Source: Paragorgia papillata (taxonomy: Eukaryota; Cnidaria; Anthozoa; Scleralcyonacea; Coralliidae). Taken from it: a DNA stretch of 64,000 bases. Below the pieces are notes generated by a model. That model saw only the letters and a list, made by a program, of their open reading frames with translations. It ran no database searches and was not told the origin of the DNA. This document shows positions 4,732 through 57,563 of this stretch, piece after piece; position 1 is the stretch's first letter; every line of letters starts with the position of its first letter. Location of the stretch: positions 186,001-250,000 of the forward strand of contig JAWNZC010000111.1 of the NCBI GenBank assembly GCA_035771165.1, given 5' to 3'. The translations under genes were made by a program, and so were the position numbers.

Positions 4732-4906
4732 TAGCCTCCTCCGCAGGCAACTCTGTGTGGCTTCCCAGAACTGTGACGTTTTGATCAAGATCTTGACTTT
4801 ATTTCAACTGTTTAACAGTTGTTGCCCGTAATACGGGCAATATTTTGGTCGAGATATTCAATTTGGCCGAGCACGAAAGGGACAGGAAGGGATTGGGAGC
4901 GGGAAA
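4732..4906 (+). repeat. Left terminal inverted repeat (175 bp)
   Basis: Identical by eye to the reverse complement of 57389-57563. It contains three consecutive perfect or near-perfect dyads: TCAAGATCTTGA (4785-4796), CAACTGTTTAACAGTTG (4805-4821) and TTGCCCGTAATACGGGCAA (4822-4840). These are candidate transposase-binding or hairpin sites. Similarity ends abruptly inside GGGAAA, after which the two ends diverge. Confidence 0.9.
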
Positions 4907-5110
4907 AAAACAAACGCGAGGGGAGGGGGGGAGAGGAAGAGAAAAAGAAAAGGAGGAGTTGCCTGCCAAATATCGACATGGTCAATGCACAGTGCGCATA
5001 TGACGCGCGCATGCTAAACTCAGGTTAGTAGGGGAAGGGGAAGGTAAAATTAAACAAGACGCGTAAATACTATCCGGGGAGGACTAGAGTTTTTTCTTGT
5101 CACAACAATA

Positions 5111-7072
5111 ATGGTGGAATTCGAGGAGTTACTGTTACAAGCGCTTAGAAAACTCTCCGTTGTGCCTCCGCTTTGGCCTCATAAAGCATGCAATTTTGCA
5201 GTGAAAGGTTGGGAAATAGAGTCGGTGGTAACAGCGATTTCACCTTTTGAGGCAGCCACTAAATTTGCTTTTTGTCTGCAAGAAATTTGCCACATCAACG
5301 AACCGTCGAAGGTGGTTAAGGAAACGACAACAGATATCGAAGTTATTGATGAAGAGAAGAATCGATATGTTTTCTCTATTAACCTTGCCAACAACAAACC
5401 TCTTGTTGAACTGAACTTTATGATCAAGAACACGCCATTACTTGATAGTAGAAATGACAACACTGTCGTCCAACATCCAAGTGGCTTAGAAGAACTAGTG
5501 TCTGACAGTGTCGACCTACAAAGCAGTGAGTTGATAGACAATACTTTAACGCACTTTTTTGGTTATTTGCAATTTCGTACATTGCAAAGAGAAACAATTG
5601 TAGCTACAATGAGACGTCGGGATGTTCTGACCGTTGTGGGAACTAGTGGTGGTAAGACCTTAATGTATCTCTTACCTGCTGTTATTTCATCGAAGACAAC
5701 ATTAGTGGTTTCTCCTATAAAATCGCTGATAGATGACACTCTTGATAGATGTCACAATCTCAACATTTCTGCCTGTAAGTTCACTGGAGATCTCTCAAAA
5801 CAAGTTCAAGACAGCCAACTACTGAATATTGAACAGTTTAAGATTGTTCTTGTAACACCAGAAATCTTGAAAGAAGGAGAGGTCATGGATACTCTTATGG
5901 CGTTGGTCGACAAAGATAAATTTGAAAGAATCGTGTTTGACGAAGCACATACAATCATTAGCTGGGGGAGCACTTTTCGTCCTGTCTACAACGAAGTCTG
6001 TGAACGATTAGCCAAGATTACGTGTTGCCCTAAATTATTATTGAGTGCAACAGTTCCTGCCAAAGTAGAATCTGAACTGAAAGCTATTTTTGATGGCTTA
6101 ACAATTTTCAGAGCATCTGTTTTCAGAGAGAATCTTTTCTTGGACGTTAGAGAGCGCACAAGCAAGTTTTACGATGACTTGAAAAACTTTATTGATGACC
6201 GAAAAGACGAATGTGGTATTGTTTATTGTGTTTTGCCCAAACATGTTTCCACACTTCATGCACAACTCCTAAAAAGAGGATTTAACTGTGTTAAATATCA
6301 TGGCCAATTGTCAGAAGAAGTGAAAATAAGTAACCATGCAAAATGGGTGAATGGAGAATGCAATGTAATTGTTGCAAATTCATCATTTGGAATGGGTATA
6401 GACAAAAAGGATGTGCGGTATGTGATCCACGGCAGGATACCCACAAGTATCGATGAGTATTACCAGCAATGTGGGCGTGCTGGGCGTGATGGATTGCCAG
6501 CAAAGTGTGTTCTTTTTTATAAATATGAGGACAAGAACATACTTTTAAAACTGTTCCAGAACCAGGGTGAAACCAGTCAGCAGATAGCATGTGTAAATGA
6601 ACTTATTCATTTTCTAGAAGACCCTGTGCAATGTCGTCACAGGAGCATCATGCTATTCTTTGGTGAGGCAATGACCAATTTCATTTGTGGGGTGAGTTGT
6701 GACAATTGTTGCCGACATGGGTGTTTCCATTTAACCGATGGTACTTCTGATGCTATGAAGGTGGTGCAAGCAGTTGTGGAATTAACTGGAAGGATTTTTA
6801 CATGTAACACCCTGAAACTTTTCTTAGCAGGAAGTCATCAGAAGGTGATTCAAGAACAAGAACTTGATCATTTATCCAACTTTGGTAGCCTTAAGAAAAG
6901 GTTTGTACCAAGTGTCTTGCTTGATAAATTTTTACATTCATTAATTAACAGTGGTGTTTTAGCAGAAGTTCCAGAAAAGAAAGGCAAAAGTTTATATCTT
7001 CAGCTTGTTCTTGGCCCAATAGCACATGATCTGCTTGCTCTTGGGATGAATGTATCCCGATATGAGAAGTAA
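5111..7072 (+). CDS. RecQ-type superfamily II DNA helicase of the giant element
   Basis: Predicted ATP-dependent 3'-5' DNA helicase of 653 aa, single exon, no break. Visible: motif I GTSGGKT (residues about 177-183), motif Ia TLVVSPIKSL, motif II DEAH (277-280), SAT motif III, motif V FGMGIDKKDVRYVIH, and motif VI QQCGRAGRDG (about 452-461), which is diagnostic of RecQ. A RecQ-type zinc-binding region follows (CRHRS...CDNCC), then a C-terminal segment resembling the RQC winged helix (GSLKKRFVPSVLLDKFLHSL). The N-terminal 140 residues are not recognisable to me. The ATG lies 205 bases inside the left TIR and is preceded by ACAATA. The gene is convergent with the ankyrin gene ending at 7831. 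Position beside the TIR argues for a transposon gene rather than a host RecQ. Its likely role is in transposition or replication of the element. Confidence 0.93.
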   Translation: MVEFEELLLQALRKLSVVPPLWPHKACNFAVKGWEIESVVTAISPFEAATKFAFCLQEICHINEPSKVVKETTTDIEVIDEEKNRYVFSINLANNKPLVELNFMIKNTPLLDSRNDNTVVQHPSGLEELVSDSVDLQSSELIDNTLTHFFGYLQFRTLQRETIVATMRRRDVLTVVGTSGGKTLMYLLPAVISSKTTLVVSPIKSLIDDTLDRCHNLNISACKFTGDLSKQVQDSQLLNIEQFKIVLVTPEILKEGEVMDTLMALVDKDKFERIVFDEAHTIISWGSTFRPVYNEVCERLAKITCCPKLLLSATVPAKVESELKAIFDGLTIFRASVFRENLFLDVRERTSKFYDDLKNFIDDRKDECGIVYCVLPKHVSTLHAQLLKRGFNCVKYHGQLSEEVKISNHAKWVNGECNVIVANSSFGMGIDKKDVRYVIHGRIPTSIDEYYQQCGRAGRDGLPAKCVLFYKYEDKNILLKLFQNQGETSQQIACVNELIHFLEDPVQCRHRSIMLFFGEAMTNFICGVSCDNCCRHGCFHLTDGTSDAMKVVQAVVELTGRIFTCNTLKLFLAGSHQKVIQEQELDHLSNFGSLKKRFVPSVLLDKFLHSLINSGVLAEVPEKKGKSLYLQLVLGPIAHDLLALGMNVSRYEK

Positions 7073-7153
7073 ACAATAAGGCAATAAGAATTTTTAATAA
7101 ATTGTTTGTCCTATAATTTGTACTAGCAAGTAATTACATGTTTTTGAGGGCAA

Positions 7154-7638
7154 TTTGGGATAAATAGCCTGAGTTAGTTTTAGTAAAAAACATGAAATTG
7201 CCGGAATGAAGTGAGAGGAAATTTAAAATTTTTTAAAGGTAATATCCAGGCATTATACGCATGTACGAAACTAATGTTTACTTCTTCGTTTATAAAAATA
7301 TATACCGATATCTTATTCCAGATTGTAAGCTTTTCTTGCTTCCTCTTCATTTCTTGTACCCGAAACACAACATTTTCAGAAGAAATCCGAAGAGATATCC
7401 TCATTGAATCACTTAATTTTCTGCATTGTTCCTTCGAACGATTTTTTCAAAACTTGTCAAAACATGACATTCGTAGATAATTACATGAAGTACTTGGCTC
7501 AGGTTGAGTACTTCATGTAATTATCTACGAATGTCATGTTTTGAGAGGTGCTCAAAACAAAGCTGGCGGATCATGCGCAGAACGCGCTGGATATCACCTT
7601 TAATGTATTTGAAAATTAAGGAGGGCTATTTATCCCAA
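7154..7638. repeat. Nested hairpin between the helicase and ankyrin genes
   Basis: A perfect 38-bp inverted repeat (7457-7494 and 7507-7544) with a 12-base loop, centred on AGTACTT...AAGTACT. It sits inside a wider pair TTTGGGATAAATAGCC (7154-7169) and its complement (7623-7638). It lies in the convergent gap between two genes, so it may be a small foldback insertion or a transcript-end structure. No coding potential. Confidence 0.75.
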
Positions 7639-7830
7639 ATGCCTGAAAAAAAACACCTAATTAATTGCATGTTACATGGAATGTTTGTTTGAATCCTACT
7701 TTCAGCCATTTTGACACAAACTTCCTGCCAATTATAAACTTTTCCAACTAATTATAAACTTTACTGTTTTTGCTTATTGTTCATTTATCTAATATAAACC
7801 AATTAATAGTTAGTGTTTGTTTGACCAAGA

Positions 7831-9784
7831 CTATAGCATATCATTGGGAAATTTCCTATGAAGAAATGAATTAAATTCACTGTTTGCTTTCAGTTCTCCT
7901 TTTTCCATCACATTCACACACTTGCTTAGAACTTTCTCTCCTTCCTTGCATTTGTTATCAGCCCAAGGGTATTTTAGAACATCAGTTCTGTGTTTTGAAA
8001 CAAACCATTCTTCATTGATGGCAAATTGGGCAATCCTCAACTGGTCATACAATGATGGTGGTTTCTTGTGCTTTTTTGTGTTGTGGATGTCAAATGATTC
8101 ACGACCTTTGTACATTTTTCGGTTCATTTCTAACAAATTTACACTGCACGACATCAACTCAACCATCTGAAATGAGCTTTGAGCTGATGAGAACTGCTTT
8201 ACCGGACGGACGAGAAAATCTTCGACCCATTCATCCCCTGCCAGTTGCTTTCCTTCTTTACCATCCAAGCTGACAGTCCTGTTCCTCTGGTACATGAGAC
8301 GGTATGCAATTGGCCATTTGGCTATTGCATTAACAGTATGAGTAAATGCTTCATCCCGATAATTTGTGTTACCCATTTGTGAAAAAAGGGCAGGACAAAT
8401 CATCCACACACCTTCAATTGCATGACCATTTCCATACCTGTTGAATAAAAATATCATGATGAGATTAATAATGTTGATGATTTGTAATACCAACCAATAC
8501 CGTTTGGTAACCACCAGACTTTTTGGCAGGAATTGGCCCTATCCCAACTGTAGTTCTACTATTAGTAATGTATCATATAAGATATGTCAATCAATGTGTG
8601 GGTTACCGTACTAGAAAGGAAAAGTTTTGACCGAATTGACACTCATGTTACTTTATAACCATACTTTTCCTTAATAATCTACCATTCCCACTGTAAACCT
8701 ACCTGACTGACTCCCAGTACCATCTTGTTATGGGCATCAGATAGTTGATGGCTTGAGAGTGGTAGTTAAATACAGCATCTTGTTCTTGTTCCTTCAACCA
8801 CTTCTTTAATTTATCAAGCAATACCTTGTTATGGGATTCTGTTTCTTTAAGACACTTGTCCAGGTCTTCAGACGTTGGAAAATAGGATGACTTTTGAAAA
8901 GACTTGATCATAGCAATGGATAGTCCATCATCGTAATCAAATAGAGCTTCTTCGTTGTTGTTATAATTGTTGTCCTTAAATTTGGACTTGAAAGATGACG
9001 GATTTACTGTTGGTCTTTTTAAAACCTTCTCCACTACATGCCAGAACCCCCCAGACCCTGCAATGCGTGCTATGCATTCGTTTACGTACCCACGGGAGTG
9101 AAAATCTCCACCTCCAGGAGTATGGCAGCCATAGACGTCAGGACAACGATTTGAACAACCTTGTATTAAGACAGTGTTCTTTTGATCACCGACATTGATA
9201 TTCAGACCACGTGCGAAATTTAATCCAGCATCGCTACAATCCATATTCGAACTCTTCGAAGCAGTCGTCTTAAAGAAAGATTCAACGTGACTAATAACAT
9301 CTTCTTCTTCTTTTATTTTCTGTTCGATTAAGCTAACCATTATAGTATCTTCCTTCACTTTAGCTATTTCTAGTGGAGGCACAGTATCTTTAAAAAATTC
9401 ACCTCGAACAGAAGCACCACAATCCAAAATAATCTTCGCGGTAATTGTGTGTCCCATGTGAAGAGCCAACGTTAGTACCGTCTGTCCAATACCATCTCGA
9501 ACGTTAATTGGACAACCAGAATATACAAGACAGCGGACGAGTCGTGTATTACCGTTCAACGAAGCCAAATGAATAACAGCCCTTTCATATTGATCTCGAG
9601 CTGGAAGCCATTCGTCTTTAAGCGCGGAGATACGTTGAACGAAATAATTTTCGCTTGTATAAACAGACGCGATATCTCGCAGTCTATCAAATACGGACTT
9701 AAAACGCTTGTCTAATTCTTCGTTTGCCTCTTTGATTCCTATTTTACATATCAATTGTGACCAACTTAAATTATCCATATTCAT
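7831..9784 (-). CDS. Ankyrin-repeat protein with a DUF6589-like C-terminal half, two exons
   Basis: Two exons, 9784-8703 and 8437-7831, joined by a canonical intron (CAG|GTAGGT donor, TTCAACAG acceptor) that keeps frame and gives 562 aa with no break. Residues about 20-60 are helical. Residues about 68-150 carry ankyrin-type repeats (AVIHLASLNGNTRLVRCLVY, then GQTVLTLALHMGHTITAKII). The second half has GGFWHVVEKVLKRPTVNP, then YLMPITRWYW...YGNGHAIEGVW and N-x(6)-GKEGK, an order resembling the C-terminal part of DUF6589 proteins common in cnidarian and fungal genomes. That match is from memory, and I cannot identify catalytic residues. Last gene of the minus-strand set, convergent with the helicase. 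The start ATG follows a non-coding gap. It may be a structural or transposase-partner protein of the element. Confidence 0.8.
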
Positions 9785-10326
9785 GAGACCACTCTGAGCG
9801 TTAAATTTATAAGGGGGGTGGGCGGGGGGCTAAGTGTATAGATGGTTAAGTAATTCATAAATTTGATATAGTTAATATTTCTATTTTTAGATTCAAGACA
9901 TTTAATTTTCTTAAGATGCAATGCAATGAACTTAAATGTTATTTTGGCAAACTTTTTGCTATTCTGTCAAATTTCATAGCTGAATGTCACTCGTAATTTT
10001 ATACCACCTCTTTCATGTCAGATAAAAGGCCTGTCCATTTATACTTCTAAAGCAATTATACCAAATACACTTACATCTTATCACACAATTATTACCTATC
10101 ACTGGTATTAATCTATGTATTAATTTAAGTTGGCAAACTGCAAAGTGAACAGAATCCAATAAAATTTTATTTATACAAGGCATTAAAATATATGAGGAAG
10201 TTACTGTACATGACACACACACAAACATTCTGTAAGAAAAGTACTGAAATACTACACGCAAAAACATACTTCTTAATAAATCCAATGTATTTACAAGACA
10301 TTATATTATTGTAAAACCATAAAAAC

Positions 10327-10407
<81 letters not shown>

Positions 10408-10681
10408 AGGACTTAAAACCAGAGCAGTCTATGTTCATGCATGTTTTGGCCCACCTGTTGGATGAATGAGTATGACACCTAAGCACAATCTTTGACAAAG
10501 TATTAGCAACATAGGTCTGACTGTTATGATCTGACTATTAATTTTTAATAGTTTATAATAATTATATTATAAAATATATTATAATAATTAATCAAACTTT
10601 TAAACTCTTTTTTCTCAAAATGCCATAATTGGACATGGACTGTTATAGTTTTAACCGCTCTATATACATGTACAAGTCATT
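9785..10681. other. Intergenic AT-rich stretch with a (TA)n tract
   Basis: Holds a (TA)n microsatellite at about 10337-10405 and a short AT palindrome near 10550-10590. No open frame of note. It separates the ankyrin gene start from the end of the next minus-strand gene. Confidence 0.6.
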
Positions 10682-11967
10682 CTAATCTTCTGCACTATCG
10701 CTTGACATATCATCAACTACAAGTAATAATTCATTGGAATTGTTTGTAAGAGATTCTTCAGAGATATTTTCTGTTTCTCCCCGTAAAATCCTCTCATATT
10801 GTTTTTGTTGTTCTTTATGCTGCTCCAGACTCTTCATAAAGGCAAAACGTTCATATGCCCTGTCAAGAGCAAATTCCTTTCTGGAACTTTTAAGAGGAAT
10901 GTATTTTGTTTTCTTCATCCCCTGAAAACCAAACTCATCAGCAAATAAATCTAAATTACTTGCAACACCAACTGTCTTGCACTGGTTTTCATGGGAGATT
11001 CAGGGGCGGATCCAGGAATTTTCATACGTTAGTCAAAATTTTAGTTGTCAACACTCAGGGGGGGGGGGGATTTTTTTGGGGGGTTGTATGATTCATCAGA
11101 GAACAGACCAGGTATTCAGTATTAAATTAAAAATTAACTGGCTTAAAGCAGGAGTTTACAGTTTATTTCACATGATCGTATTACACCACACCATGCTGTC
11201 CACTCAATTGATAGCCTAACATTAGCAACAAAATAGACTATAAAATACAATGCCACATATTTAGTTCGGTGAATAAATATATAGAATAATAGATAATATA
11301 TATTTATGACACTAGTCAATATGCCCATCAGTTAAACCATTTTCTTCTGCAAAGCCAAAGGCAATTTTGGCAGCCTGGCAGGTTATGATCGTATTACACC
11401 AGACCATGCTGTCGGTCTATTGATAGCCTAAGAAAACAGACTAAATACAAATATACAATGCCACTTATTTTGTTCGGTCACTTCGGTGAATAAATATATA
11501 GAATAATCGATACCTAAGTCGAAATCTTTAGCTGATATTAATTGATATAATGCTGCTTTTATAATGCATTTATATGATTTAGATATTAATAACCTTTTGA
11601 CCGCAAAAATATGCTAATTTGGGTAAATTCCATCGAGATTATCATATACAAGCCTAAATATTAAAATCGGCGCACAGCTTGTTCTGTTAATAGACATTCT
11701 GAAACAAGACAAAATATGTTTAATTTACCTTATAGCAGTACAGGACTTGTTCTATTGATCTCGAACACACTTCGGGATTAAACTCTCGGCACCAAAATTT
11801 CTACTGAGGCAGAAGTTCGTGCTGTTTATCGCACTCAAAAGCTCTTCAACAGAATTCTTCGGCGAAGCGTCGATTCGCTTCATCAGATCAGCATAAATTT
11901 CTTGTAGACATTTTTGATCGTTCCCCGCAAACGCAGACTGAACAGTATCGTAAATACTACAAGACAT
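10682..11967 (-). pseudogene. Two-exon gene of unknown function with a 1-nt deletion
   Basis: Exon 1 is 11967-11729 and exon 2 is 10981-10682, joined by AAG|GTAAAT and AAAACCAG. Exon 1 is 239 bases. Its frame changes at the A4 run 11794-11797 (T4 on the coding strand), and one extra base there would restore phase 0 to exon 2. The would-be product is about 179 aa. It has a helical N-terminus (QKCLQEIYADLMKRID), a Cys-rich middle in the downstream frame (FWCREFNPEVCSRSIEQVLYCYK followed by C) with a CxxC across the exon junction, a lysine-rich coiled-coil-like segment (MKSLEQHKEQQKQYERIL) and an acidic end. The intron holds repeats. Function unknown. The lesion could be real decay or a sequencing error in a short homopolymer. 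Confidence 0.6.
10986..11470. repeat. Repeat-filled intron: GGGGCGGATCCAGG end and a diverged direct repeat
   Basis: GGGGCGGATCCAGGAATTTTC at about 11002 resembles a common animal MITE end and is followed by a G-run at 11058-11087. Two diverged direct copies of GATCGTATTACACCA-CCATGCTGTC occur at about 11174 and 11386, each followed by GATAGCCTAA and later by TTCGGTGAATAAATATATAG. Non-coding. Confidence 0.5.
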
Positions 11968-12084
11968 TGCTGTTTAAATTCTTTCTACTCTAACATGGGA
12001 CTTCGAATTGAACCTCAGTGGCCAAGCAGCGATCAGAAAGGCTGGATTCGTCAGACCTTGAGTGTATACAGCAAGATCATATCC

Positions 12085-12300
12085 CACGCTGCGAATCGGT
12101 CAAGATCGGTCAAAAAATGTGACCAATAAGAATACGAAAATTTTTTTAATTAGCCAATCAGATAGCTTGTATACGAGCGCCCCTGATTCCTAAATCGGTC
12201 AGAACTCCCCACAGATCGGTCAAAATTGCTGATCTCCATGGAGATGAGCATATTGACCAATCAGATGGCTAGAATCTGACTCAGAGCGGTCAAAACTCAC
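12085..12300. promoter_or_regulatory. Cluster of CGGTCA motifs upstream of the 11967 start
   Basis: Between the end of one minus-strand gene (12447) and the start of the next (11967) there are at least five CGGTCA copies (near 12095, 12105, 12195, 12213, 12285) plus TGACC in the opposite sense (12119, 12253). The spacing is irregular. Candidate binding sites for an element-encoded or host factor. This is inference from repetition only. Confidence 0.35.
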
Positions 12301-12446
12301 GCGTAAGTCCGCTGTTCGTTGACTTGATAATATTACTTTACAGAAACTCAGCCGCAGCATGAAACTTGATAACTGGACTACAATGGTGCCGCTGCTTGAA
12401 AATAGATAACTCATCATAACTGGACTATCATTCGAATTTTAATTAA

Positions 12447-13996
12447 TTAACTATTTAACTCCGCAATTTTTACGTTAGTCGCGTGACTGGTTTGACGACC
12501 CCTATCGGAAATTTTTTGCAAATCATCACCTGTGGCGTACTTAATTTCTTCCTCTGATTCTGTAACAGAGTTTAGGGCCAAATCCAATTTTCGCAATAAA
12601 TTTCTGTCTTTGAAACATATCCACTTAATGTTTAGCTCATCATGGGTTTCTTAAAAGAATTTAAAACACTTTTAAATATCAAGTTAAGAGATTTGTCATG
12701 GTACACATAAATATCAAGTTAAGAGATTGATCATGGTATACGTTATTATTGCATTGTAACCCATTAATTCCTGCCTGGGATACTGCCTCAGCTAGACCTT
12801 TCCTTCTGCATAATAAAATAATCTGCCATTAGCCACAATGAAATAAAGGATACTTGAACAATAAAACCCAAAAAATTACCGCAATGGAATCATTGCAGTC
12901 AAACTAAATATCTTAATTTATATGGAACACTTACCGATCTTGGTGTCTTTGTAGATAAGCTCTTTCACTGGACGCTGGGGTTTTACTGCTTCATCTTCAT
13001 TGAAGTATTTCTCAATATTAGTTATGTCCGCTTCTCGCCATCATCCACGTACTGTGAAATCCCACATCTTGCCTTGTTTTACCTTTTCTTTCTGCAACTT
13101 GGAAAGGCTTAGGTGCCTCAATGAAGTGCGACATATCTGCATGTTATCTTGATAGGTAATCACTGGCTGGGTACTGCATAAACGCTGGAGTATGATATCC
13201 TTGTAATTCATCAGCTGACTTTTAAGAACACCAACTCTAAAAAAACAACAATGAATAGAAGTACCAGTACTGGTATACTAAATTATTGCTGTTTTTTTTC
13301 ACAGTCTGGATTCGGACTGTGGTTTGTCAATTGAATACCCCTGGTAAAAAATAATAATCATTATGATAAGAACAGGGAAAAGAAATACATGTACTTAGAA
13401 AAAAAGAGTTTATAGATACAAGGTCATTGAAAACCTATATAATTTATACTGATTATTCACTTACAATATGGGATATGATTCTGATAAGCCGAGGCGTTGG
13501 AGAACTCGTATCATTGCTGGTCCAGCACCATAGCAAATAGACAATAAACCAAACAGGATTGGAATGTCATTTTTGCTGTGTTGGTCCCTAATATCCAATA
13601 AAGAAGCCAAGAGATGTACAGATGCTTTCATCTTGAGATCATCAGTTTTTAAAATGTTTCTGGAGGTGTTGTGTGAAAGAACAAGCTGTTCCAGTATATT
13701 TGTTATTGTTGGGCATGTAGTTTTGACATTTGCAACCAACTTCTGAAACAACAGTGGATCAAACACATCTGAAATGTCACTTGTTTTGTTGTCTTTATGT
13801 TGAAATTAAAAAGTTTCTTTGCCTTTTCCACTTCTGAATTGATGGCATGTCTTTCTGATAATGACAGTAATCCACCAAGAAGCCTTCCACTTCCAATAAT
13901 ATCTTGTTGCAAAGAAATAACATCTTCTTGCAACTTTATAATTTTCTGAACACGAATAACATAATCAGTAATATATTTCTTCAAATCAATAAGCAT
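12447..13996 (-). pseudogene. DUF6589-N-like gene with a frameshift and a stop, three exons seen
   Basis: Exons: 13996-13465, 13236-12935 and 12649-12447. The junctions (ATATT|GTAAGT, TTTTTTTAG, ATCG|GTAAGT, TTCTTTTAAG) are canonical, and all phases agree once one base is added to the first exon near the AATTTC at about 13800. A second lesion is an in-frame TGA in exon 2 (about 13030, after DFTVRG). The intended product is about 345 aa: an N-terminal helical segment (VIRVQKIIKLQEDVISLQQD), then ILFGLLSICYGAGPAMIRVL and LGLSESYPIL, then a YQDN motif. LLFGLL-x-YGAG, GLS-x-S and YDN in this order recall the region preceding DUF6589 in cnidarian and fungal proteins. That is recall, not a search. 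Same strand as its neighbours and probably a decayed component of the transposition set. Confidence 0.6.
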
Positions 13997-13999
13997 TTT

Positions 14000-14480
14000 T
14001 GAAGGTTATAAGCATTTTTCAATAATGGTATGGATTTTTCTTATGTATATTCAGTCAAAGAGCCAGCTCTCAACATTGCAATTCCAAAGAACTAAGATAA
14101 AATCATCAATGTGGAAGGGATAAAAACTTTTTTCCTTATTAACATTTCGGGCCCACACCCTTCTTCAGATATATACAGTATGTATATATATATACATATA
14201 TACTAGTTGAAAAAATTTTTGAACAAAAACATATATAAATATATATATATATGTTTTGCCTTTTTGTCATACTCTTTTTGACAGGAGCTTTGTTTTATTA
14301 CACAATAAAGTTGTAGTGCACTATTGGTTTTATTATTAGTACATCTCAATAGAGGTATCTTTATTAGGTGAATTAGCGGACACATAATTATTCTGACCAC
14401 ATTAAATCTGACCACAGTCATTAAATAACAACCGAGACTAATTGTTACACGTTGCATATACAGTTATCTCTAAATCTGTT
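14000..14480. repeat. Diverged element end with (TA)n and AT-rich repeats
   Basis: AACATTTCGGGCCCACACCCTTCTTCAG at about 14146 has the look of a Penelope-like element end. The block 14200-14330, with GAACAAAAACATATATAAATAT and GACAGGAGCTTTGTTTTATT, recurs inverted at about 23828-24225. Non-coding. Confidence 0.45.
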
Positions 14481-15521: not shown

Positions 15522-15638
15522 TAATCCCCGAGCCCGGGCGTAGGGCCGAAGGCCCGGAGCCCGGTGAGGGTGCTAATCTCGACATGCGTGTAGTCCACTT
15601 TACACGCGTGGAGAAAAAGCGAGGGAGACGAAATCTGG

Positions 15639-15710
<72 letters not shown>

Positions 15711-18104
15711 GCACGGTGTCACGCGGTAAGAATAGTTGGACACTGGTGACTAGCGACGAAGAAAACAATATTAAAACTCTCAAACAAATAGTGTTTTGCT
15801 TTCGTTTATTTAAAGGAAACGAAATGAAATGGAGCACGAAGAAAAGGATACAAACAACCCGTTTAATATATCTTGAAGAGAAACCAGAGAACTTGAAGAA
15901 ACCAAACGCCGTATGGTAAACAAAAACTCGATCTGCAGTGTATGTAGCCCTGGTTTGAAGACACTCGGTGAGTCCATGGTCAAATTAATCGTCTTAAAGT
16001 GGTTAACGGTAGGATTCTTGTTGTTTTCAAGTTTTCGCTTAACCTAAACAATATTCAGCTTCACGTTTTCGTGCTTTCCCTTTGCTCATCCAAACCATAA
16101 GTCAGCTTAACTAAAGCTAACTTAAAACACTACCTTTAAGGCTTATATTAACCGTGGTGGACGTGCATGCACTTTTTATTTATATTAAAAATACTCATGG
16201 GCTTTGTTGGTTTTCTTGGCTGTGTTTCGACTGAAACGTCTTTTGAATTCTTCTTTCTGGAATCCGACTCTACTGAATTGTTTTTATCTCAGACTCTATT
16301 ATAAATGTAATTTCTGAGCTGTTAATTACTTTTAATACTGCCTTTGCAAAATGTACATGCATAGAGAAGCCATTTAAAGGCTTGCTAAAATTAATCCCAT
16401 TTGAAACCTCCTAAAAACAATATATTTTTTACAACCAGAATTTAATAATGAAATCTAAATTTTGCTTTGATATGTTCAACTTTCATTAAATGATTTAAAT
16501 CAGTTTTCTCATCCTATCGACCTATCCATAAATTGTATAATTTAATATCCCAAGGATTTAACATCATTTGTTTTTATATCTGTTTGTTTTTGTATTGGCT
16601 GTATATTAGGATTTAGGAGTGCTTATTTTAATCAGGGGGTGGGTGGGTGTTTTAAAAAAGAATGTAAAAGCGGGCGAGGGGTTGTTGCGTTCATGTATTT
16701 CTAGTTATACATATAATTATCTAATTGACGTATAATCAAGTGAAGACTTCGTGATTGATTGAATTTTATGCAGCCCCGCTCGACAATTTTAGCTTCCCAC
16801 GGTCATGCAACAATGGTCTACAGTACAGACCTTCGGTGGAGAGTCGTGTATTTTTGGTATGGGAAGCTTAAAACGGTATCGTATATTGCAACAAAGCTAA
16901 AAATTTCGAAATCAACTGTGCGTCGTATAATTGCACGCTACGATACTTTCGGAGAAGTTCGCCATGAGAAAATAGGCCGCCCAGATGTATCTCAACTGAT
17001 GACTAGGACACAACTGCTGGTGTTGATGGAGTATGTCTTGGAACACGAGTCAGCATATCTTAGAGAGATGTGCCATCATATAGAAGAAATAACTGGATCA
17101 GCATATAATACTAGAAATACATGAACGCAACAACCCCTCGCCCGCTTTTACATTCTTTTTTAAAACACCCACCCACCCCCTGATTAAAATAAGCACTCCT
17201 AAATCCTAATATACAGCCAATACAAAAACAAACAGATATAAAAACAAATGATGTTAAATCCTTGGGATATTAAATTATACAATTTATGGATAGGTCGATA
17301 GGATGAGAAAACTGATTTAAATCATTTAATGAAAGTTGAACATATCAAAGCAAAATTTAGATTTCATTATTAAATTCTGGTTGTAAAAAATATATTGTTT
17401 TTAGGAGGTTTCAAATGGGATTAATTTTAGCAAGCCTTTAAATGGCTTCTCTATGCATGTACATTTTGCAAAGGCAGTATTAAAAGTAATTAACAGCTCA
17501 GAAATTACATTTATAATAGAGTCTGAGATAAAAACAATTCAGTAGAGTCGGATTCCAGAAAGAAGAATTCAAAAGACGTTTCAGTCGAAACACAGCCAAG
17601 AAAACCAACAAAGCCCATGAGTATTTTTAATATAAATAAAAAGTGCATGCACGTCCACCACGGTTAATATAAGCCTTAAAGGTAGTGTTTTAAGTTAGCT
17701 TTAGTTAAGCTGACTTATGGTTTGGATGAGCAAAGGGAAAGCACGAAAACGTGAAGCTGAATATTGTTTAGGTTAAGCGAAAACTTGAAAACAACAAGAA
17801 TCCTACCGTTAACCACTTTAAGACGATTAATTTGACCATGGACTCACCGAGTGTCTTCAAACCAGGGCTACATACACTGCAGATCGAGTTTTTGTTTACC
17901 ATACGGCGTTTGGTTTCTTCAAGTTCTCTGGTTTCTCTTCAAGATATATTAAACGGGTTGTTTGTATCCTTTTCTTCGTGCTCCATTTCATTTCGTTTCC
18001 TTTAAATAAACGAAAGCAAAACGCTATTTGTTTGAGAGTTTTAATATTGTTTTCTTCGTCGCTAGTCACCAGTGTCCAACTATTCTTACCGCGTGACACC
18101 GTGC

Positions 18105-18158
<54 letters not shown>

Positions 18159-18273
18159 CCAGATTTCGTCTCCCTCGCTTTTTCTCCACGCGTGTAAAGT
18201 GGACTACACGCATGTCGAGATTAGCACCCTCACCGGGCTCCGGGCCTTCGGCCCTACGCCCGGGCTCGGGGAT
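15522..18273. repeat. 2.75-kb palindrome (inverted duplication) splitting a transposase gene
   Basis: Left arm 15522-16705 and right arm 17110-18273 are near-identical inverted copies around a 404-bp spacer. They differ mainly in (TA)n length (15646-15705 against 18110-18150) and a few substitutions. Outer ends carry CCCCGAGCCCGGGC; inner ends carry CATGTATTTCTAGT. The spacer encodes the N-terminus of an IS630/Tc1-like transposase, whose next codons resume just outside the right arm. The right arm is therefore an inverted insertion inside the coding region. Confidence 0.85.
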
Positions 18274-23884: not shown

Positions 23885-23922
<38 letters not shown>

Positions 23923-25043: not shown

Positions 25044-25084
<41 letters not shown>

Positions 25085-26659: not shown

Positions 26660-28220
26660 CTGATGAAAATAATTAAACCTGAAAAGAAATAATTGAATTA
26701 AATAATGCTTTATAAAATGCACTAACCATGGTGAATAGCAGCAAAAGATAGTTCTTACAGGATGACTAATATAAACCTAAAGAAAAAACTATATATTTAA
26801 AGTACAGTATATCCTGGAAAATAGCACTGTTTTTCTTGGATATACTTTAAAAAAAATGTTAGTTAAGTTCATAACCAACTCAATAAATACGGCGTCTGAA
26901 TCAAACACTGTTCTTTATGGTCGAACGTATTAGTATTAGATACGGCTCATGAAAAATACGCCGTCTGAAACGGACCTAAGTTCTGTTAGAATTCGTAATT
27001 TCTAATGTAATTTAAAACCAAAATCCAGCGACAATGAATGGGTGGCACCCCACGATACCCCTGCCATCGAGCAGATAATACGATGTTACATCGGGGGACT
27101 GGAAGCCTTGGCTTTTTGTATTGTAAATTAATTTGCTTGTAAATTTAAAAAATATATAAGCTGCAAAACTAATTCGGATGTTTTCTTGATATATTTAAAT
27201 TTTAACAAGCCTTGTTCAAGAACGTTGTTTGCTTCACCTTTTACACAAATTTAATATTAAAACGTTTAAAGCACACATTGAATAATATAATGATTATACC
27301 TCAATGTATTTTTGTTCTTAAAAGTACGTTTATCACTGGTATCCCTCGTCAGCATGCATGCTTGCTCAGATTTGCTTCGCCCGAGGTGAATAAATAACAT
27401 CCCCGAGGGGCCTCAAAATAACTTGCTTATATTCCACATGTGCAAGGTTGCCAGAAGAGACAATAGCAACGACATGGGATGCGCGCTGTAACAATAGAAT
27501 AAAAGCATTAGGTACCCAATAAAATTTCAAGTGCTAAATTTGAATTGTAAAGTGTTTTGCTCGCTTGGTATAACACACGCTAAAGTTTGACGAAAACAGT
27601 TGCACATCGTTGAGACATGAGTGAGTCGGATGAAGCGATTCTCTTAACACAAAATAAGTTTCGCGATTCCTTTAGGGCGAGTAGGGGATTAGATGACATT
27701 GTGTCTTCAGAAGCTAATAATTGTCAATTTGAGCAATTGTTCAGTTGCATCTAAAATGTGATGGCCGGGTTTACACGTGCGCGTTTTAACGAGTTTGTAA
27801 CTCCTAGGCGTTATGTGTATAAATAAATTATTGTATTGTATTGTATTGTAAGTGTACTTGGTCTTGGATACAAGGCTTATTAAAGTGTGTATTATTGAAG
27901 TGTGTATTATTAAAGGATTCTTGATGTTGTTTTGTTTTTCAAATTTGAGCAAGGAAGAAAACGTGGCCGGGGAATATTAGAGGTAAATATTGGCGGGGAT
28001 TATTAGAGGGGATTATTAGAGGGGAATATTAGAGGGGAATATGAATTAATTGTTTTGCTATTGTTGTCGGTCATTGTTTTCAGCCCCGCACTCCCCTGTT
28101 GCTATTCAAAACCGCCATAAACTTTTGAAACAGTTCAGTGACCGGGGATATTGAATATATTCTCCCCAAAGAACAAAAGAAAACGAGCCATGTGGAATAT
28201 AATTAATGTTATTTAATTAA
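26660..28220. other. Non-coding stretch before the satellite
   Basis: No convincing gene. Contains a GGGGATTATTAGA-type short tandem repeat at about 27993-28040 and GTATT repeats near 27830-27850. A small diverged palindrome (AATACGGCGTCTGAA against AAATACGCCGTCTGAAACGG, direct rather than inverted) lies near 26885-26970. Confidence 0.5.
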
Positions 28221-42200: not shown

Positions 42201-45200
42201 TGTAGTTATATACCCCTATATCAAAGTTAGACCCATTTTTACATAACATACTTCGATTAGCTCGATTGATCTGAAATTTCAGTATTATACTGCATTACAT
42301 GATTAAAGATGATGTGCAAAATTTCAGACTGAAATTCGATCGCGAAGTTTGTGTTCAATAACACTGTGGGGTCATAACACTGTAGTTATTATACCCCTAT
42401 ATCAAAGTTAGACCCATTTTTACATAACATACTTCGATTAGCTCGATTGATCTGAAATTTCAGTATTATACTGCATTACATGATTAAAGATGATGTGCAA
42501 AATTTCAGACTGAAATTCGATCGCGAAGTTTGTGTTCAATAACACTGTGGGGTCATAACACTGTAGTTATATACCCCTATATCAAAGTTAGACCCATTTT
42601 TACATAACATACTTCGATTAGCTCGATTGATCTGAAATTTCAGTATTATACTGCATTACATGATTAAAGATGATGTGCAAAATTTCAGACTGAAATTCGA
42701 TCGCGAAGTTTGTGTTCAATAACACTGTTGGGTCATAACACTGTAGTTGTATTATACCCCTATATCAAAGTTAGACCCATTTTTACATAACATACTTCGA
42801 TTAGCTCGATTGATCTGAAATTTCAGTATTATACTGCATTACATGATTAAAGATGATGTGCAAAATTTCAGACTGAAATTCGATCGCGAAGTTTGTGTTC
42901 AATAACACTGTGGGGTCATAACACTGTAGTTATATACCCCTATATCAAAGTTAGACCCATTTTTTACATAACATACTTCGATTAGCTCGATTGATCTGAA
43001 ATTTCAGTATTATACTGCATTACATGATTAAAGATGATGTGCAAAATTTCAGACTGAAATTCGATCGCGAAGTTTGTGTTCAATAACACTGTTGGGTCAT
43101 AACACTGTAGTTGTATTATACCCCTATATCAAAGTTAGACCCATTTTTACATAAACATACTTCGATTAGCTCGATTGATCTGAAATTTCAGTATTATACT
43201 GCATTACATGATTAAAGATGATGTGCAAAATTTCAGACTGAAATTCGATCGCGAAGTTTGTGTTCAATAACACTGTGGGGTCATAACACTGTAGTTATAT
43301 ACCCCTATATCAAAGTTAGACCCATTTTTACATAACATACTTCGATTAGCTCGATTGATCTGAAATTTCAGTATTATACTGCATTACATGATTAAAGATG
43401 ATGTGCAAAATCTCAGACGGAAGTTTGTGTTCAATAACACTGTGGGGTCATAACACTGTAGTTATATACCCCCATATCAAAGTTAGACCCATTTTTACAT
43501 AACATACTTCGATTAGCTCGCTTGATCTGAAATTTCAGTATTATACTGCATTACATGATTAAAGATGATGTGCAAAATTTCAGACTGAAATTCGATCGCG
43601 AAGTTTGTGTTCAATAACACTGTGGGGTCATAACACTGTAGTTATATACCCCTATATCAAAGTTAGACCCATTTTTACATAACATACTTCGATTAGCTCG
43701 ATTGATCTGAAATTTCAGTATTATACTGCATTACATGATTAAAGATGATGTGCAAAATTTCAGACTGAAATTCGATCGCGAAGTTTGTGTTCAATAACAC
43801 TGTGGGGTCATAACACTGTAGTTATATACCCCTATATCAAAGTTAGACCCATTTTTACATAACATACTTCGATTAGCTCGATTGATCTGAAATTTCAGTA
43901 TTATACTGCATTACATGATTAAAGATGATGTGCAAAATTTCAGACTGAAATTCAATCGCGAAGTTTGTGTTCAATAACACTGTGGGGTCATAACACTGTA
44001 GTTATATACCCCTATATCAAAGTTAGACCCATTTTTACATAACATACTTCGATTAGCTCGATTGATCTGAAATTTCAGTATTATACTGCATTACATGATT
44101 AAAGATGATGTGCAAAATTTCAGAATGAAATTCGATCGCGAAGTTTGTGTTTAATAACACTGTGGGGTCATAACACTGTAGTTATATACCCCTATATCAA
44201 AGTTAGACCCATTTTTACATAACATACTTCGATTAGCTCGATTGATCTGAAATTTCAGTATTATACTGCATTACATGATTAAAGATGATGTGCAAAATTT
44301 CAGACTGAAATTCGATCGCGAAGTTTGTGTTCAATAACACTGTGGGGTCATAACACTGTAGTTATATACCCCTATATCAAAGTTAGACCCATTTTTACAT
44401 AACATACTTCGATTAGCTAGATTGATCTGAAATTTCAGTATTATACTGCATTACATGATTAAAGATGATGTGCAAAATTTCAGACTGAAATTCGATCGCG
44501 AAGTTTGTGTTCAATAACACTGTGGGGTCATAACACTGTAGTTATATACCCCTATATCAAAGTTAGACCCATTTTTACATAACATACTTCGATTAGCTCG
44601 ATTGATCTGAAATTTCAGTATTATACTGCATTACATGATTAAAGATGATGTGCAAAATTTCAGACTGAAATTCGATCGCGAAGTTTGTGTTCAATAACAC
44701 TGTGGGGTCATAACACTATAGTTGTATTATACCCCTATATCAAAGTTAGACCCATTTTTACATAACATACTTCGATTAGCTCGATTGATCTGAAATTTCA
44801 GTATTATACTGCATTACATGATTAAAGATGATGTGCAAAATTTCAGACTGAAATTCGATCGCGAAGTTTGTGTTCAATAACACTGTGGGGTCATAACACT
44901 GTAGTTATATACCCCTATATCAAAGTTAGACCCATTTTTACATAACATACTTCGATTAGCTCGATTGATCTGAAATTTCAGTATTATACTGCATTACATG
45001 ATTAAAGATGATGTGCAAAATTTCAGACTGAAATTCGATCGCGAAGTTTGTGTTCAATAACACTGTGGGGTCATAACACTGTAGTTATATACCCCTATAT
45101 CAAAGTTAGACCCATTTTTACATAACATACTTCGATTAGCTCGATTGATCTGAAATTTCAGTATTATACTGCATTACATGATTAAAGATGATGTGCAAAA

Positions 45201-47014
45201 TTTCAGACTGAAATTCGATCGCGAAGTTTGTGTTCAATAACACTGTGGGGTCATAACACTGTAGTTATATACCCCTATATCAAAGTTAGACCCATTTTTA
45301 CATAACATACTTCGATTAGCTCGATTGATCTGAAATTTCAGTATTATACTGCATTACATGATTAAAGATGATGTGCAAAATTTCAGACTGAAATTCGATC
45401 GCGAAGTTTGTGTTCAATAACACTGTGGGGTCATAACACTGTAGTTGTATTATACCCCTATATCAAAGTTAGACCCATTTTTACATAACATACTTCGATT
45501 AGCTCGATTGATCTGAAATTTCAGTATTATACTGCATTACATGATTAAAGATGATGTGCAAAATTTCAGACTGAAATTCGATCGCGAAGTTTGTGTTCAA
45601 TAACACTGTGGGGTCATAACACTGTAGTTATATACCCCTATATCAAAGTTAGACCCATTTTTACATAACATACTTCGATTAGCTCGATTGATCTGAAATT
45701 TCAGTATTATACTGCATTACATGATTAAAGATGATGTGCAAAATTTCAGACTGAAATTCGATCGCGAAGTTTGTGTTCAATAACACTGTGGGGTCATAAC
45801 ACTGTAGTTATATACCCCTATATCAAAGTTAGACCCATTTTTACATAACATACTTCGATTAGCTCGATTGATCTGAAATTTCAGTATTATACTGCATTAC
45901 ATGATTAAAGATGATGTGCAAAATTTCAGACTGAAATTCGATCGCGAAGTTTGTGTTCAATAACACTGTGGGGTCATAACACTGTAGTTGTATATACCCC
46001 TATATCAAAGTTAGACCCATTTTTACATAACATACTTCGATTAGCTCGATTGATCTGAAATTTCAGTATTATACTGCATTACATGATTAAAGATGATGTG
46101 CAAAATTTCAGACTGAAATTCGATCGCGAAGTTTGTGTTCAATAACACTGTGGGGTCATAACACTGTAGTTATATACCCCTATATCAAAGTTAGACCCAT
46201 TTTTACATAACATACTTCGATTAGCTCGATTGATCTGAAATTTCAGTATTATACTGCATTACATGATTAAAGATGATGTGCAAAATTTCAGACTGAAATT
46301 CGATCGCGAAGTTTGTGTTCAATAACACTGTGGGGTCATAACACTGTAGTTATATACCCCTATATCAAAGTTAGACCCATTTTTACATAACATACTTCGA
46401 TTAGCTCGATTGATCTGAAATTTCAGTATTATACTGCATTACATGATTAAAGATGATGTGCAAAATTTCAGACTGAAATTCGATCGCGAAGTTTGTGTTC
46501 AATAACACTGTGGGGTCATAACACTGTAGTTGTATTATACCCCTATATCAAAGTTAGACCCATTTTTACATAACATACTTCGATTAGCTCGATTGATCTG
46601 AAATTTCAGTATTATACTGCATTACATGATTAAAGATGATGTGCAAAATTTCAGACTGAAATTCGATCGCGAAGTTTGTGTTCAATAACACTGTGGGGTC
46701 ATAACACTGTAGTTATATACCCCTATATCAAAGTTAGACCCATTTTTACATAACATACTTCGATTAGCTCGATTGATCTGAAATTTCAGTATTATACTGC
46801 ATTACATGATTAAAGATGATGTGCAAAATTTCAGACTGAAATTCGATCGCGAAGTTTGTGTTCAATAACACTGTGGGGTCATAACACTGTAGTTATATAC
46901 CCCTATGTCAAAGTTAGACCCATTTTTACATAACATACTTCGATTAGCTCGATTGATCTGAAATTTCAGTATTATACTGCATTACATGATTAAAGATGAT
47001 GTGCAAAATTTCAG
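33204..47014. repeat. 180-bp satellite array, right part (about 77 copies)
   Basis: Continues the same head-to-tail monomer as 28221-30688. Monomers are almost identical. The most variable spot is the TAGTT(A/GTA)TTATA step, giving units of 178-184 bp. Marker variants (CTCAGACGG with a 14-base deletion plus CCCCCATATC at 40713 and 43412; CACTATAGTTGTATTATA at 42015 and 44714) recur 2699 bases apart, showing block duplication of 15 monomers. One damaged unit lies at 36241-36315. The array ends at TTTCAG 47014. No gene inside. Confidence 0.97.
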
Positions 47015-47640
47015 AAGTAAAATAAACAAACGAAAGTCCTATACTCGGTGAAATAGGTAGTATTGACAATCACGATTATATTAGCGAATGCAAAAATAAT
47101 TTCTAGTGTTACAACTGTTTTTAACACTCCAGCCCAACCCTCTCTCCCAGTCTTTTGTCATTTTCTAAATATGGTATTCGTAATTTTTAAATTTATTTAC
47201 TTCATCTTCTTTTTTAAGATGTGTTTATCGTTTGATTACCCCCTAATTTTTTTGATATTTTTTATATATAATTTTGTTTGTATAATACAATGAGACCTAG
47301 TGTTTTGTTTTGTTTTCTCGTACCGTGATTTTTCCATTAAGCCCCCGGAGGGCTTATTTTTTTCAAGCATCATTGAGGGGGGCCTTAATGGAGAGGGGCC
47401 TTATTAGACAGAGGAGGGCTTATTTCAATTATATACAAAAGGTCTGATTGCGTGTTTGATTCTCTTTAATATGCCAACATAGTATTTTGAACAAGGTACG
47501 GTGATGTTACTTAAGTGGTCACCACCGAACCCTCTGGCTACATAAAAGTTTCTTTTTCGTGAATGAGTAACAACGTAACAAGTAGCTGTATGATAGCTAG
47601 GCTGAGTGCATGCGGTATCCGATATGAACATATCGTTTTT
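47015..47640. other. Non-coding stretch right of the satellite
   Basis: T-rich sequence, then at 47330-47430 a repeat with TTAAGCCCCCGGAGGGCTTA and GGGGGGCCTTAATGGAGAGG, a style common in anthozoan repeats. No gene seen. Confidence 0.45.
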
Positions 47641-47689
47641 CATCGACTGTTATAGGCTAGTGATTGCCCTAACTCCTACCAATATCAAA

Positions 47690-49440: not shown

Positions 49441-49552
49441 TACTAGTGGACAAATCTATAGAGAACGCATAATTTGATGTGAATCAGCTCTTAACTGCGT
49501 TTTTCATAACATTAAGTGTTATACTGTAGTTAAATTTCACTTCAGTTACCCT

Positions 49553-55273: not shown

Positions 55274-55748
55274 TTTATTGAAGCTGAATTGTGGCCGTAG
55301 CGCGCGAAGCGAGTCCTGGGTCCTACTTGATTGCATTACCCATAATGGGTAATTCCAGACCATTGGACATATACCTATTATTGGTAATCTCAGACTGAGG
55401 ATGTGTTGAAAAAATAGACAAAACTTTGTTGGAAAACCTCCTCAATCATGAAATAAGTCAGATAATACCCTCGAACGTCGGGCTGTATGCGATATACAGC
55501 CCGACGTTCTCGGGCTTTATCTATTACATACATATAACATATCATGTATAGTATTACAGGTATTACAAGCAGGTTGTAGGAGGATGGTATTTGCATTTGA
55601 TATTTAACTTTATGAAGCTTATTCAATATTCACAGAAGTTCAGTTAATCATCTAATGTTAAACTAGTAATGTCACAAGTTAAATTCTAGCCGGGTCAAGT
55701 AGAATTTTCCATACATGGTTTGTCCACTATGAGTAGCACCCAATATCC

Positions 55749-57221
55749 TTAATTTCCACCTGAGTAAACAATCCCATATCAATTATTTGTAATACTAATA
55801 CCTGCAATAGTATCTTTTCTAAATGTATCAACTCTGACAGCCTCAGCTTCTGGAGCACAACTGTCAAGTAACAGACCTACATGTATGTAAAAGATCAGAC
55901 CATTCTGTTTAATATGTGAACCTGCTTTATACAGTACAGAATAACAATATTCTAATTGAAAGCATTTGCAAGCAGATGTAGTTTCCTTCACAGGCAACTC
56001 TGCATAAGACTACAGTAAGTCAGTACAGTATTACATACCCTTTCTGGCTTTACTTGTGAGCTTTAAAACATGGCTAGAGCTGGATGTTTCTGTAAAAAAT
56101 ATACATAAAGATGTTCTACATGTATAAGAATACAGTGATATAAAATATACACACTTGTTGATTTGTGTAAATTAGGCACGAGTTGGTTTAATGCACAGCA
56201 TACCATAATATACTGTATGTACATGAATTTACATGTGAAAGACATTTCAAAGTATTAATATAATTATTTACCTAATGCACCTAAACCTGGTTTTTCAATA
56301 AATGCTAATCCTCTGTAATAGGCTCTGAAATAGAAAACAAAAATAAACCAAGAGTTAATCTGTCAAAATATGACAAATTAAATAAAATATGAGTAAATAA
56401 AGACGCTATTAACAAAAGAATTACTAGTAAACTAAATTACAAAAGTGCGTGAATTTTAAATGACAAATTACAGAGAAAACGTATGCACAGTGCACACTAA
56501 CTGAAAAAGAGATTCGTAGCCATACCTTTTCTTCTTTCCCATGTACTCCACTTTCTTTCCATATATTTTTTATACAGCGCTCAAAATATTGGCACGTTCA
56601 AATCCCTGCACTTCAGCCGGTTCTGGAAATCTCTCCCGTAGTTTTTCAACAAGTTCATCTACCACGAGAACAGATTCTGTCTTTTTGTAGATTAAATGTT
56701 CTAGGGCTTGTTTAAGATCTGCTTTAAACTTTAGGTAACAAGGTTTGACTGTAAAGTAATGGATACAGAATTTAATCGTTTAGAAAATCATGTGTAAAAT
56801 TTGCTTTTTAAAGACAAAGTATAATAAATTGTTTGAATAAATGAATGCACAAAGTCCAGTTTTCAGTAGAGGTAGATTCCGATTCCACTGTAATAGTAAA
56901 TTCACCTTTTCTTTTCGTTCCTCCTGGAGTAAATATTACTCTCCTCGCAGATTCGTCAAGGACATTTTTAGGCGCTGTAGTGGACGTTGTTCGACCATCA
57001 CGACCATGTGATTCAAGACCGAGACTAGCCCTTCGATCCGCCTCCAAAGTTTTCTTTATCGTTTTTATCTCACTCTGAATTTCTTCGATTTCGGTTTGCT
57101 TCTTGTTGACGTTACGCAATATATTTTTGTATTCCAAGCTACAAACAGGAATTCGTGTTTTCTTTTTTTCGCGTGGTACCTTCGATTTAACTTGTCTAGA
57201 TTCGCTTTCACCTTCCACCAT
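55749..57221 (-). pseudogene. Seven-exon gene of unknown function with one premature stop
   Basis: Exons 57221-56906, 56748-56526, 56324-56272, 56089-56039, 55999-55922, 55876-55802 and 55759-55749. Every junction is canonical and phases agree throughout, giving 268 codons interrupted only by TAA at 56572-56570 (codon 165). Exon 1 has a basic N-terminus (VPREKKKTRIPV) and a coiled coil (NVNKKQTEIEEIQSEIKTIK). Exon 2 encodes CYLKFKADLKQALEHLIYKK and VVDELVEKLRERFPEPAEV. Later exons encode AYYRGLAFIEKPGLGAL and GLLLDSCAPEAEAVRVDTF. Not recognised. Its ATG is 168 bases inside the right TIR, in context ATCATGG. It is the first gene from the right end, mirroring the helicase at the left end. A point mutation in an otherwise preserved gene suggests recent inactivation. 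Confidence 0.65.
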
Positions 57222-57388
57222 GATGACGATCCAAGTGCGCAATCATATCCCCACTCTACCCCGGGTGAATTGTTAGGTCCATTTGGGTGAAGTGTCGCGA
57301 CCAACACATCGATTTTTGGCAGGCTACTCTCACCCTTTTCTTTTCTCGCCCGCCAATTTTATCCCTCAATTTCCCTTACAGTCCCTGC

Positions 57389-57563
57389 TTTCCCGCTCCC
57401 AATCCCTTCCTGTCCCTTTCGTGCTCGGCCAAATTGAATATCTCGACCAAAATATTGCCCGTATTACGGGCAACAACTGTTAAACAGTTGAAATAAAGTC
57501 AAGATCTTGATCAAAACGTCACAGTTCTGGGAAGCCACACAGAGTTGCCTGCGGAGGAGGCTA
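57389..57563 (-). repeat. Right terminal inverted repeat (175 bp)
   Basis: Exact reverse complement of 4732-4906 by eye, including the three dyads. Followed by CGCTAGACT, the right target duplication. Confidence 0.9.

Follow-up and report, generated by a model that had tools for sequence, protein, structure and literature searches.

The 64,000-nucleotide stretch of the anthozoan Paragorgia papillata analysed here (assembly GCA_035771165.1, contig JAWNZC010000111.1, positions 186,001–250,000; the whole stretch is called the window) contains a DNA transposon that we term AcademH-like, bounded by terminal inverted repeats (TIRs) and flanked by 9-bp target duplications. The element's own genes are three: a RecQ-type helicase gene, a gene whose product combines ankyrin repeats with part of DUF6589 (the ankyrin protein), and a gene of several exons that we call gene 2. 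Sequence comparison indicates that the last two are the counterparts of a single transposase chain, which sister elements in this genome have undivided. The features, in window coordinates, are as follows.

4723–4731, left 9-bp target duplication, CGCTACACT, 8/9 against the right copy
4732–4906, plus strand, left TIR, starting TAGCCTCCTCC
5111–7072, plus strand, RecQ-type helicase, open frame of 653 amino acids with DEAD, Helicase_C, RecQ zinc-binding and RQC domains
7831–8538, minus strand, open frame with the last ankyrin-gene exon; inferred exon start at about 8436, proposed Glu codon at 8221–8223
8702–9784, minus strand, ankyrin gene exon 1; Met at 9782–9784, proposed second catalytic Asp codon at 9185–9187
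10682–10999, minus strand, 3' part of gene 2 exon 5; stop codon at 10682–10684, acidic C-terminus
11001–12503, no strand assigned, 1.5-kb stretch interrupting gene 2 exon 5
12504–14018, minus strand, gene 2 exon 3 (its 5' part missing), exon 4 and the start of exon 5; proposed first Asp codon at 13146–13148, frames broken
14019–55404, no strand assigned, 41.4-kb stretch
55405–57388, minus strand, 5' part of gene 2 with exon 1, exon 2 and introns; Met at 57219–57221, exon limits inferred
57389–57563, minus strand, right TIR, matching the left TIR at 175/175 positions
57564–57572, right 9-bp target duplication, CGCTAGACT, 8/9 against the left copy

An earlier note on this DNA, made from the sequence alone, had described perfect 175-bp TIRs with a matching 9-bp duplication. 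The TIRs at 4732–4906 and 57389–57563 are indeed identical, and the duplication is real and above chance (the probability of at least 8/9 by base composition is 1.9e-4) but not exact, since CGCTACACT and CGCTAGACT differ at one position. The species' own 617.9-Mb assembly holds 91 matches to the window TIR. Both exact ends lay in the sequence retrieved at nine places; five of these end pairs have a perfect 9-bp duplication (C304, C400, C150, C350 and C344), three, including the window, have one of 8/9 (the others are C468 and C114), and at C250 none was found, so that eight of the nine pairs show a duplication of at least 8/9. The duplicated 9-mers vary in sequence between copies. Copy C304 spans 11.5 kb from end to end with the perfect duplication GTTCAATAA, C400 spans 69.8 kb with GTACAGCGA, and the related copy C150 measures 10,284 bp end to end, with the perfect duplication GCCAAACTA, inverted repeats of about 190–280 bp and the same gene order as in the window. 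An end starting TAGCCTCCTCC is also present in all seven helicase loci checked (L027, L028, L029, L031, L032, L033 and L035), drawn from 30 helicase loci retrieved in this genome. Because TIRs and 9-bp duplications recur at other loci, the window ends are those of a real DNA transposon. The earlier note had proposed looking for further copies with duplications of their own and the same genes: C400 is such a copy, and C304 is one for part of the genes. It had named TIRs around unrelated sequence as contrary evidence; these occur only as derivatives (L019–L022), of which three are palindromic (306–336 bp) and the fourth measures 2,983 bp; they use the same ends and have duplications of 8–9/9. 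The table of TIR matches suggests many more short derivatives beyond these four. A protein-pattern search of viral_contigs gave 21 pattern matches, none of them a relative of the element, and an end-pattern search there likewise gave no relative; in genome_contigs, from which records close to the species' own genome may be excluded, none of 42 pattern matches was a relative.

BLASTN comparison revealed that window segments 4732–11000, 12504–14018 and 55405–57563 are common to C304 and/or C400, and this core, which amounts to 9,943 of the 52,832 bp, has the same order in all three copies. Almost the whole helicase is missing from C304, and C400 bears insertions of its own. The stretch at 11001–12503 is missing from C304 and C400, which have about 110 bp there instead, and we read it as a nested insertion. 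The stretch at 14019–55404 is missing from both bar short repeats and replaces about 350 bp of C304; genome-wide matches switch at 14018 and 55405 from C304 and C400 to other loci. As only the core is shared with these copies and C150 is compact, the comparison indicates that the element itself is about 10 kb long and owes its present 52.8 kb to insertions nested within gene 2.

The helicase matches all four of its Pfam domains above their cut-offs, as well as NCBIfam recQ_fam, and its closest solved structures are BLM and RECQ1. For two other proteins, NCBIfam gave only matches below the cut-off (P0005) or none (P0085). Relatives without stops in C150, C432 and C354 share 54–61% identity with it over residues 10–653, and it lies within the common ends in the window, C400 and C150. 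In an unrooted helicase tree, a branch with full support separates ten window-lineage rows from the rest; three of them (C84, C378 and C58) carry that label by kinship and not by the frame test given below. The nucleotide-binding motif reads GTSGGKT in the window and GTGGGKT in C400. At least 103 DUF6589 matches and at least 69 helicase matches were found in this genome, a number that speaks for a diversity of helicase and DUF6589 elements within it.

The two parts of the ankyrin gene, 7831–8538 and 8702–9784, are continuous in relatives of about 565 amino acids. We found 83 relatives of the ankyrin protein, the longer ones mostly of 554–621 amino acids; 32 of them reach the N-terminal motif, which is preceded by 23 residues or fewer in 27. 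DUF6589 exceeds the Pfam cut-off in four of the six relatives scanned, and in all six only its C-terminal part is matched, the ankyrin proteins aligning to DUF6589 positions 255–401. Both the ankyrin frame and the helicase frame are open in the window copy.

For gene 2 we used a five-exon model inferred from the window and C304, with a predicted product of about 700 amino acids. A protein search that scored the 7994 candidates with most words in common returned seven relatives, from sources named Actinostola, Paramuricea or Exaiptasia, all of them cnidarians. Four of the seven have an acidic C-terminal tail, as does C150; the remaining three end before it. Both insertions interrupt gene 2 in the window, where it also has frame breaks and an in-frame stop in exon 2 (about 56500–56700), and this copy cannot make an intact gene 2 product. 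Over eight stretches of the three genes, compared between the window family and C150 (gene 2 being taken from C304), the proportion of nonsynonymous differences (pN) is 0.04–0.26 against 0.73–0.95 for synonymous differences (pS). Synonymous divergence is saturated in most stretches, and no exact ratio is therefore claimed, but the low pN relative to pS suggests that all three genes are maintained as proteins. Both the gene 2 half and the ankyrin half thus look to be under purifying selection.

The relation between these two genes is seen in the sister element C88, where convergent helicase and ankyrin repeats are seen directly. One stop-free frame of 766 amino acids matches the gene 2 profile at residues 52–186 (E 6e-12) and the ankyrin profile at residues 207–763 (E 3e-122), and an exon just upstream of this frame matches the QDN-motif stretch of gene 2 (E 1.6e-11); among 1000 shuffled decoys the best E values were 0.26 and 0.37. 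Single-sequence BLASTP agrees, with E values of 5e-9, 2e-10 and 2e-11 for the frame and of 3e-15 and 2e-11 for the upstream exon, and the result is hence independent of alignment A3. That alignment contains the chimeric row P0088, which is the likely cause of a weak A3 match on P0004. In a Pfam scan of the C88 frame, made in two pieces, a DUF6589 match at positions 26–103 (E 7e-5, below the cut-off) is followed by ankyrin repeats and by a second DUF6589 match at 260–406, above the cut-off (E 3.6e-15). This order places the ankyrin repeats inside the DUF6589 domain, and the window lineage is divided at the same point; the same partition of DUF6589 is found there, gene 2 taking positions 20–98 and the ankyrin proteins 255–401.

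The comparison was extended to other loci of the same genome. Searches with one protein of each kind gave 94 and 82 matches, from which 27 gene 2 loci were picked by hand; 26 of these have a listed ankyrin match, 15 belonging to sister elements and 11 to the window lineage. Both halves lie in one stop-free frame (524–1126 amino acids) at seven of the 15 sister loci and at none of the 11 window-lineage loci, where the gap between the halves is 671–1341 nt in nine and 3216 and 7355 nt in the other two. The matched ranges span all three proposed catalytic positions in five of these seven frames (C194, C381, C344, C39 and C263). The sister elements with an undivided transposase frame are C88, these five, C373 and C95. 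They are known here from their genes, with gene 2 relatives 26–31% identical (seven loci) and helicases about 30% identical. Taken together, the sequences indicate that one chain in the sisters is the counterpart of gene 2 plus the ankyrin gene.

The motif order of undivided DUF6589 proteins is TGDN, GGDQ and NIEDDLAQEI. The candidate counterpart of the first motif is YQDN in gene 2 and MYDN in C88, that of the second VGDQ in the ankyrin protein and VGDN in C88, and that of the third GDEWVED in the ankyrin protein and LDEYVET in C88. From these we infer that gene 2 would carry the first catalytic Asp and the ankyrin protein the other two residues, the second Asp and the Glu. Modelled by itself, the ankyrin protein is well predicted in its ankyrin and helical regions, but has a predicted local distance difference test score (pLDDT) below 50 at residues 175–229, 261–276 and 414–488, and contains no RNase H sheet. 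The proposed second Asp (residue 201) and Glu (residue 435) fall in the first and last of these low-scoring stretches. Such low confidence may reflect a missing partner, with which it is in line, or a shallow alignment. Foldseek matches with E values of 0.001 or below are, by title, ankyrin-type proteins or complexes with designed ankyrins.

We regard it as probable that the element is an AcademH-like transposon of about 10 kb that encodes three proteins and has its transposase split between gene 2 and the ankyrin gene. We also lean, more cautiously, towards the further proposal that a eukaryotic DDE triad is here divided over two separately encoded proteins, which would have arisen by fission of a chain with ankyrin repeats already within its RNase H fold and of which both halves have been kept in anthozoans. 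In the undivided chain, the first catalytic residue would precede the ankyrin repeats and the second would follow them. After division, the gene 2 protein and the ankyrin protein would meet, perhaps via the ankyrin repeats, and a single RNase H-like active site would be completed from both chains. Such a two-part transposase, presumably of cut-and-paste type, would act on the 175-bp inverted repeats and join with a 9-bp stagger, and the helicase may unwind strands during excision or gap repair. To our knowledge, the DDE transposases described so far keep all three catalytic residues on one chain.

Several observations weigh against this proposal. Each half compared with a 19-row alignment of undivided DUF6589 proteins gave a non-significant result (E 0.37 and 0.17), as it did with single-row versions, and the C88 frame reached only E 0.005 against the undivided DUF6589 profile; the assignment of the catalytic residues consequently rests on order and motif. 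The match of gene 2 to DUF6589 positions 20–98 is weak (E 0.043), the last ankyrin-gene exon of the window scores 22.6 bits against a Pfam cut-off of 27, and the upstream C88 exon that holds the proposed Asp has no Pfam match. The gene 2 model is poor, with a pLDDT of 41.7 from an alignment of six rows, one of them chimeric, and the tree program warned of long branches in the helicase tree. Eight of the 15 sister loci lack a single open frame, four having the halves in frame with unequal open frames and four out of frame. Finally, the automatic gene model P0088 (Paramuricea) fuses pieces of both genes, and some possible splice sites, described next, lie between them. A further protein, P0070, contains both parts but not the stretch with the Asp, and we take it for an internal deletion.

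The main rival is that the two genes of this same AcademH-like element are joined by splicing, perhaps alternative, into one ordinary transposase, the stop and the new Met belonging to minor or mispredicted forms. The single chain of the sister elements and the fused model P0088 speak for such joining. In addition, acceptor-like AGs lie 7–9 bases upstream of the ankyrin Met in the window, C400 and C304 (the check covered the window family; the motif was not located in C150), and exon 5 contains donor-like sites, the best scoring 4.4 bits in C304 and 5.2 bits in C150 on our own approximate matrix; the latter comes near the weaker of the inferred donors (5.5 bits), the other scoring 8.8. However, in the window family no donor between the ERFAF motif and the stop exceeds 0.1 bits (3.5 in C150), and the acidic tails recur in four of the seven gene 2 relatives and in C150. 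The short N-terminal leader in 27 of the 32 ankyrin relatives that reach the motif and the intervening sequence of 671–1341 nt at nine of 11 loci also speak for separate proteins, and we consider joining by splicing unlikely, while taking it seriously. A different possibility is that gene 2 is a DNA-binding or regulatory subunit only and that the ankyrin protein is the whole transposase, with all catalytic residues. This would fit the above-cut-off DUF6589 matches on ankyrin relatives and on the corresponding part of C88, next to the weak DUF6589 link of gene 2. It is improbable in view of the N-terminal DUF6589 part found on gene 2 and before the ankyrin repeats in the C88 frame, of the conserved QDN block of gene 2 that corresponds to the exon just upstream in C88, and of an ankyrin model that has no RNase H sheet and whose structural matches at E values of 0.001 or below are, by title, only ankyrin-type proteins or complexes with designed ankyrins.

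The earlier note had instead seen one transposon of 52.8 kb, perhaps of an undescribed lineage, with a set of six genes. The spacing of the exact inverted repeats, the near-perfect 9-bp duplication and the 69.8-kb span of C400 are in its favour, but the large copies have in common, within their ends, only the core and short repeats, the window interior matches other genomic places and the C150 relative measures 10.3 kb. A giant unit was rejected by comparison with C304, C400 and C150, and we judge it very improbable; nested repeats can make an ordinary element look like a giant transposon. The six genes reduce to three, a 572-aa frame being a hAT match in a satellite array. The note's RecQ-type helicase from the left end is present as the open plus-strand frame, and minus-strand coding does lie between it and the right end, although the exons belong to two genes and not five. 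It was also right in seeing a real helicase transposon, related in kind to AcademH, that has further genes (more than one) beside the helicase. The remark that no single classical transposase is obvious turned out to be correct, though unexpectedly so: the DUF6589-type transposase is apparently split over two genes. That the structure is an artefact, by chance repeats or by a mis-join of two molecules, is hardly credible: we found no point in support, the same or related ends stand with duplications of their own at seven other places, and three copies agree in the order of the core. The splitting of an AcademH-like transposase over two genes remains the reading we prefer.

Within the 41.4-kb insertion are a satellite, a hAT-type frame, a KDZ-associated CxC3 domain and DDE_3 pieces. 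This insertion is in turn a large repeat with defined ends (14021–55411): a collinear copy, about 36 kb long, lies at C225:1182799–1219069, and there are partial copies in C105, C106, C72, C76, C176 and C385; no terminal inverted repeats were found between its two ends. A 180-bp satellite array of 16.3 kb, about 90 units, occupies 28219–30689 and 33202–47015 and is split by the 572-aa frame (about 30977–32695), which matches the hAT dimerisation domain. The C225 copy has space for a much shorter array only. At 15524–18273 lies a near-perfect inverted duplication around a helix-turn-helix frame, with 1048-bp arms that are 100% complementary, followed by the DDE_3 pieces at 18650 and 21007. Outside the element, the right flank carries a Transposase_21 (tnp2) frame at 60392–61258.

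With respect to known families, the element has the TIRs (175/175) that define AcademH, a RecQ-type helicase of its own and 9-bp duplications. The candidate for an Academ-type DDD/E transposase is the DUF6589 part, above the cut-off in four of six relatives and in C88; DUF6589 is taken to stand for Academ transposases, and as the assignment is by way of this domain, we call the element AcademH-like. The duplication length alone would also fit MuDR/MULE elements; no MULE-type transposase match to Pfam was found among the element open reading frames (ORFs) scanned. Kolobok elements duplicate TTAA, whereas the duplications here are 9 bp long and varied in sequence. Polinton/Maverick elements encode DNA polymerase B and a retroviral-type integrase; neither was matched in the ORFs scanned (18 of the 38 window ORFs of at least 100 amino acids and three gene 2 pieces). 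Polinton/Maverick duplications are given as 6 bp in a passage of PMC10045372, against 9 bp here. The same paper gives 9 or 10 bp for AcademH and 3 or 4 bp for AcademX and ties the difference to helicase versus nuclease; the present duplications are not of the AcademX length, and no nuclease domain was found among the element ORFs scanned. AcademH occurs in animals and fungi according to the title of Kojima 2020 (Mob DNA 11:15), as cited in PMC10045372 and PMC10799480. KolobokH, as described in PMC9587614, resembles the present element in combining a RecQ helicase with a DDD/E transposon.

Among the literature matches listed for divided or heteromeric transposases, no title concerned a natural divided eukaryotic DDE triad, and the top match was an engineered heterodimer; a search for DUF6589 found no paper on this arrangement, the original AcademH description being outside that search, so that an earlier report is possible. 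If both proteins work as one enzyme, a two-gene transposase would be new, and mobility would need co-expression and assembly of two proteins. A natural division of this kind would come with a built-in comparison, the undivided sisters in the same genome, and it would become testable how an RNase H active site assembles in trans, what ankyrin repeats do in a transposase and whether the division limits mobility. We know of no natural eukaryotic division of one DDE triad in either the piggyBat heterodimer or Tn7. Tn7 has a heteromeric transposase, as proposed here, but is bacterial. The piggyBat heterodimeric transpososome (PMC13405395) is likewise multi-chain but, by its title, an engineered, recast mammalian system. 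The undivided DUF6589 proteins (L059, A4) have the same motif order as the two halves taken together, but on a single chain and with no ankyrin among the listed domains. AcademH itself, compared here by its description in PMC10045372, is like the window element a DNA transposon with a helicase and 9- or 10-bp duplications; the window lineage differs in having its transposase in two genes, and its undivided sisters in having ankyrin repeats between the putative catalytic parts.

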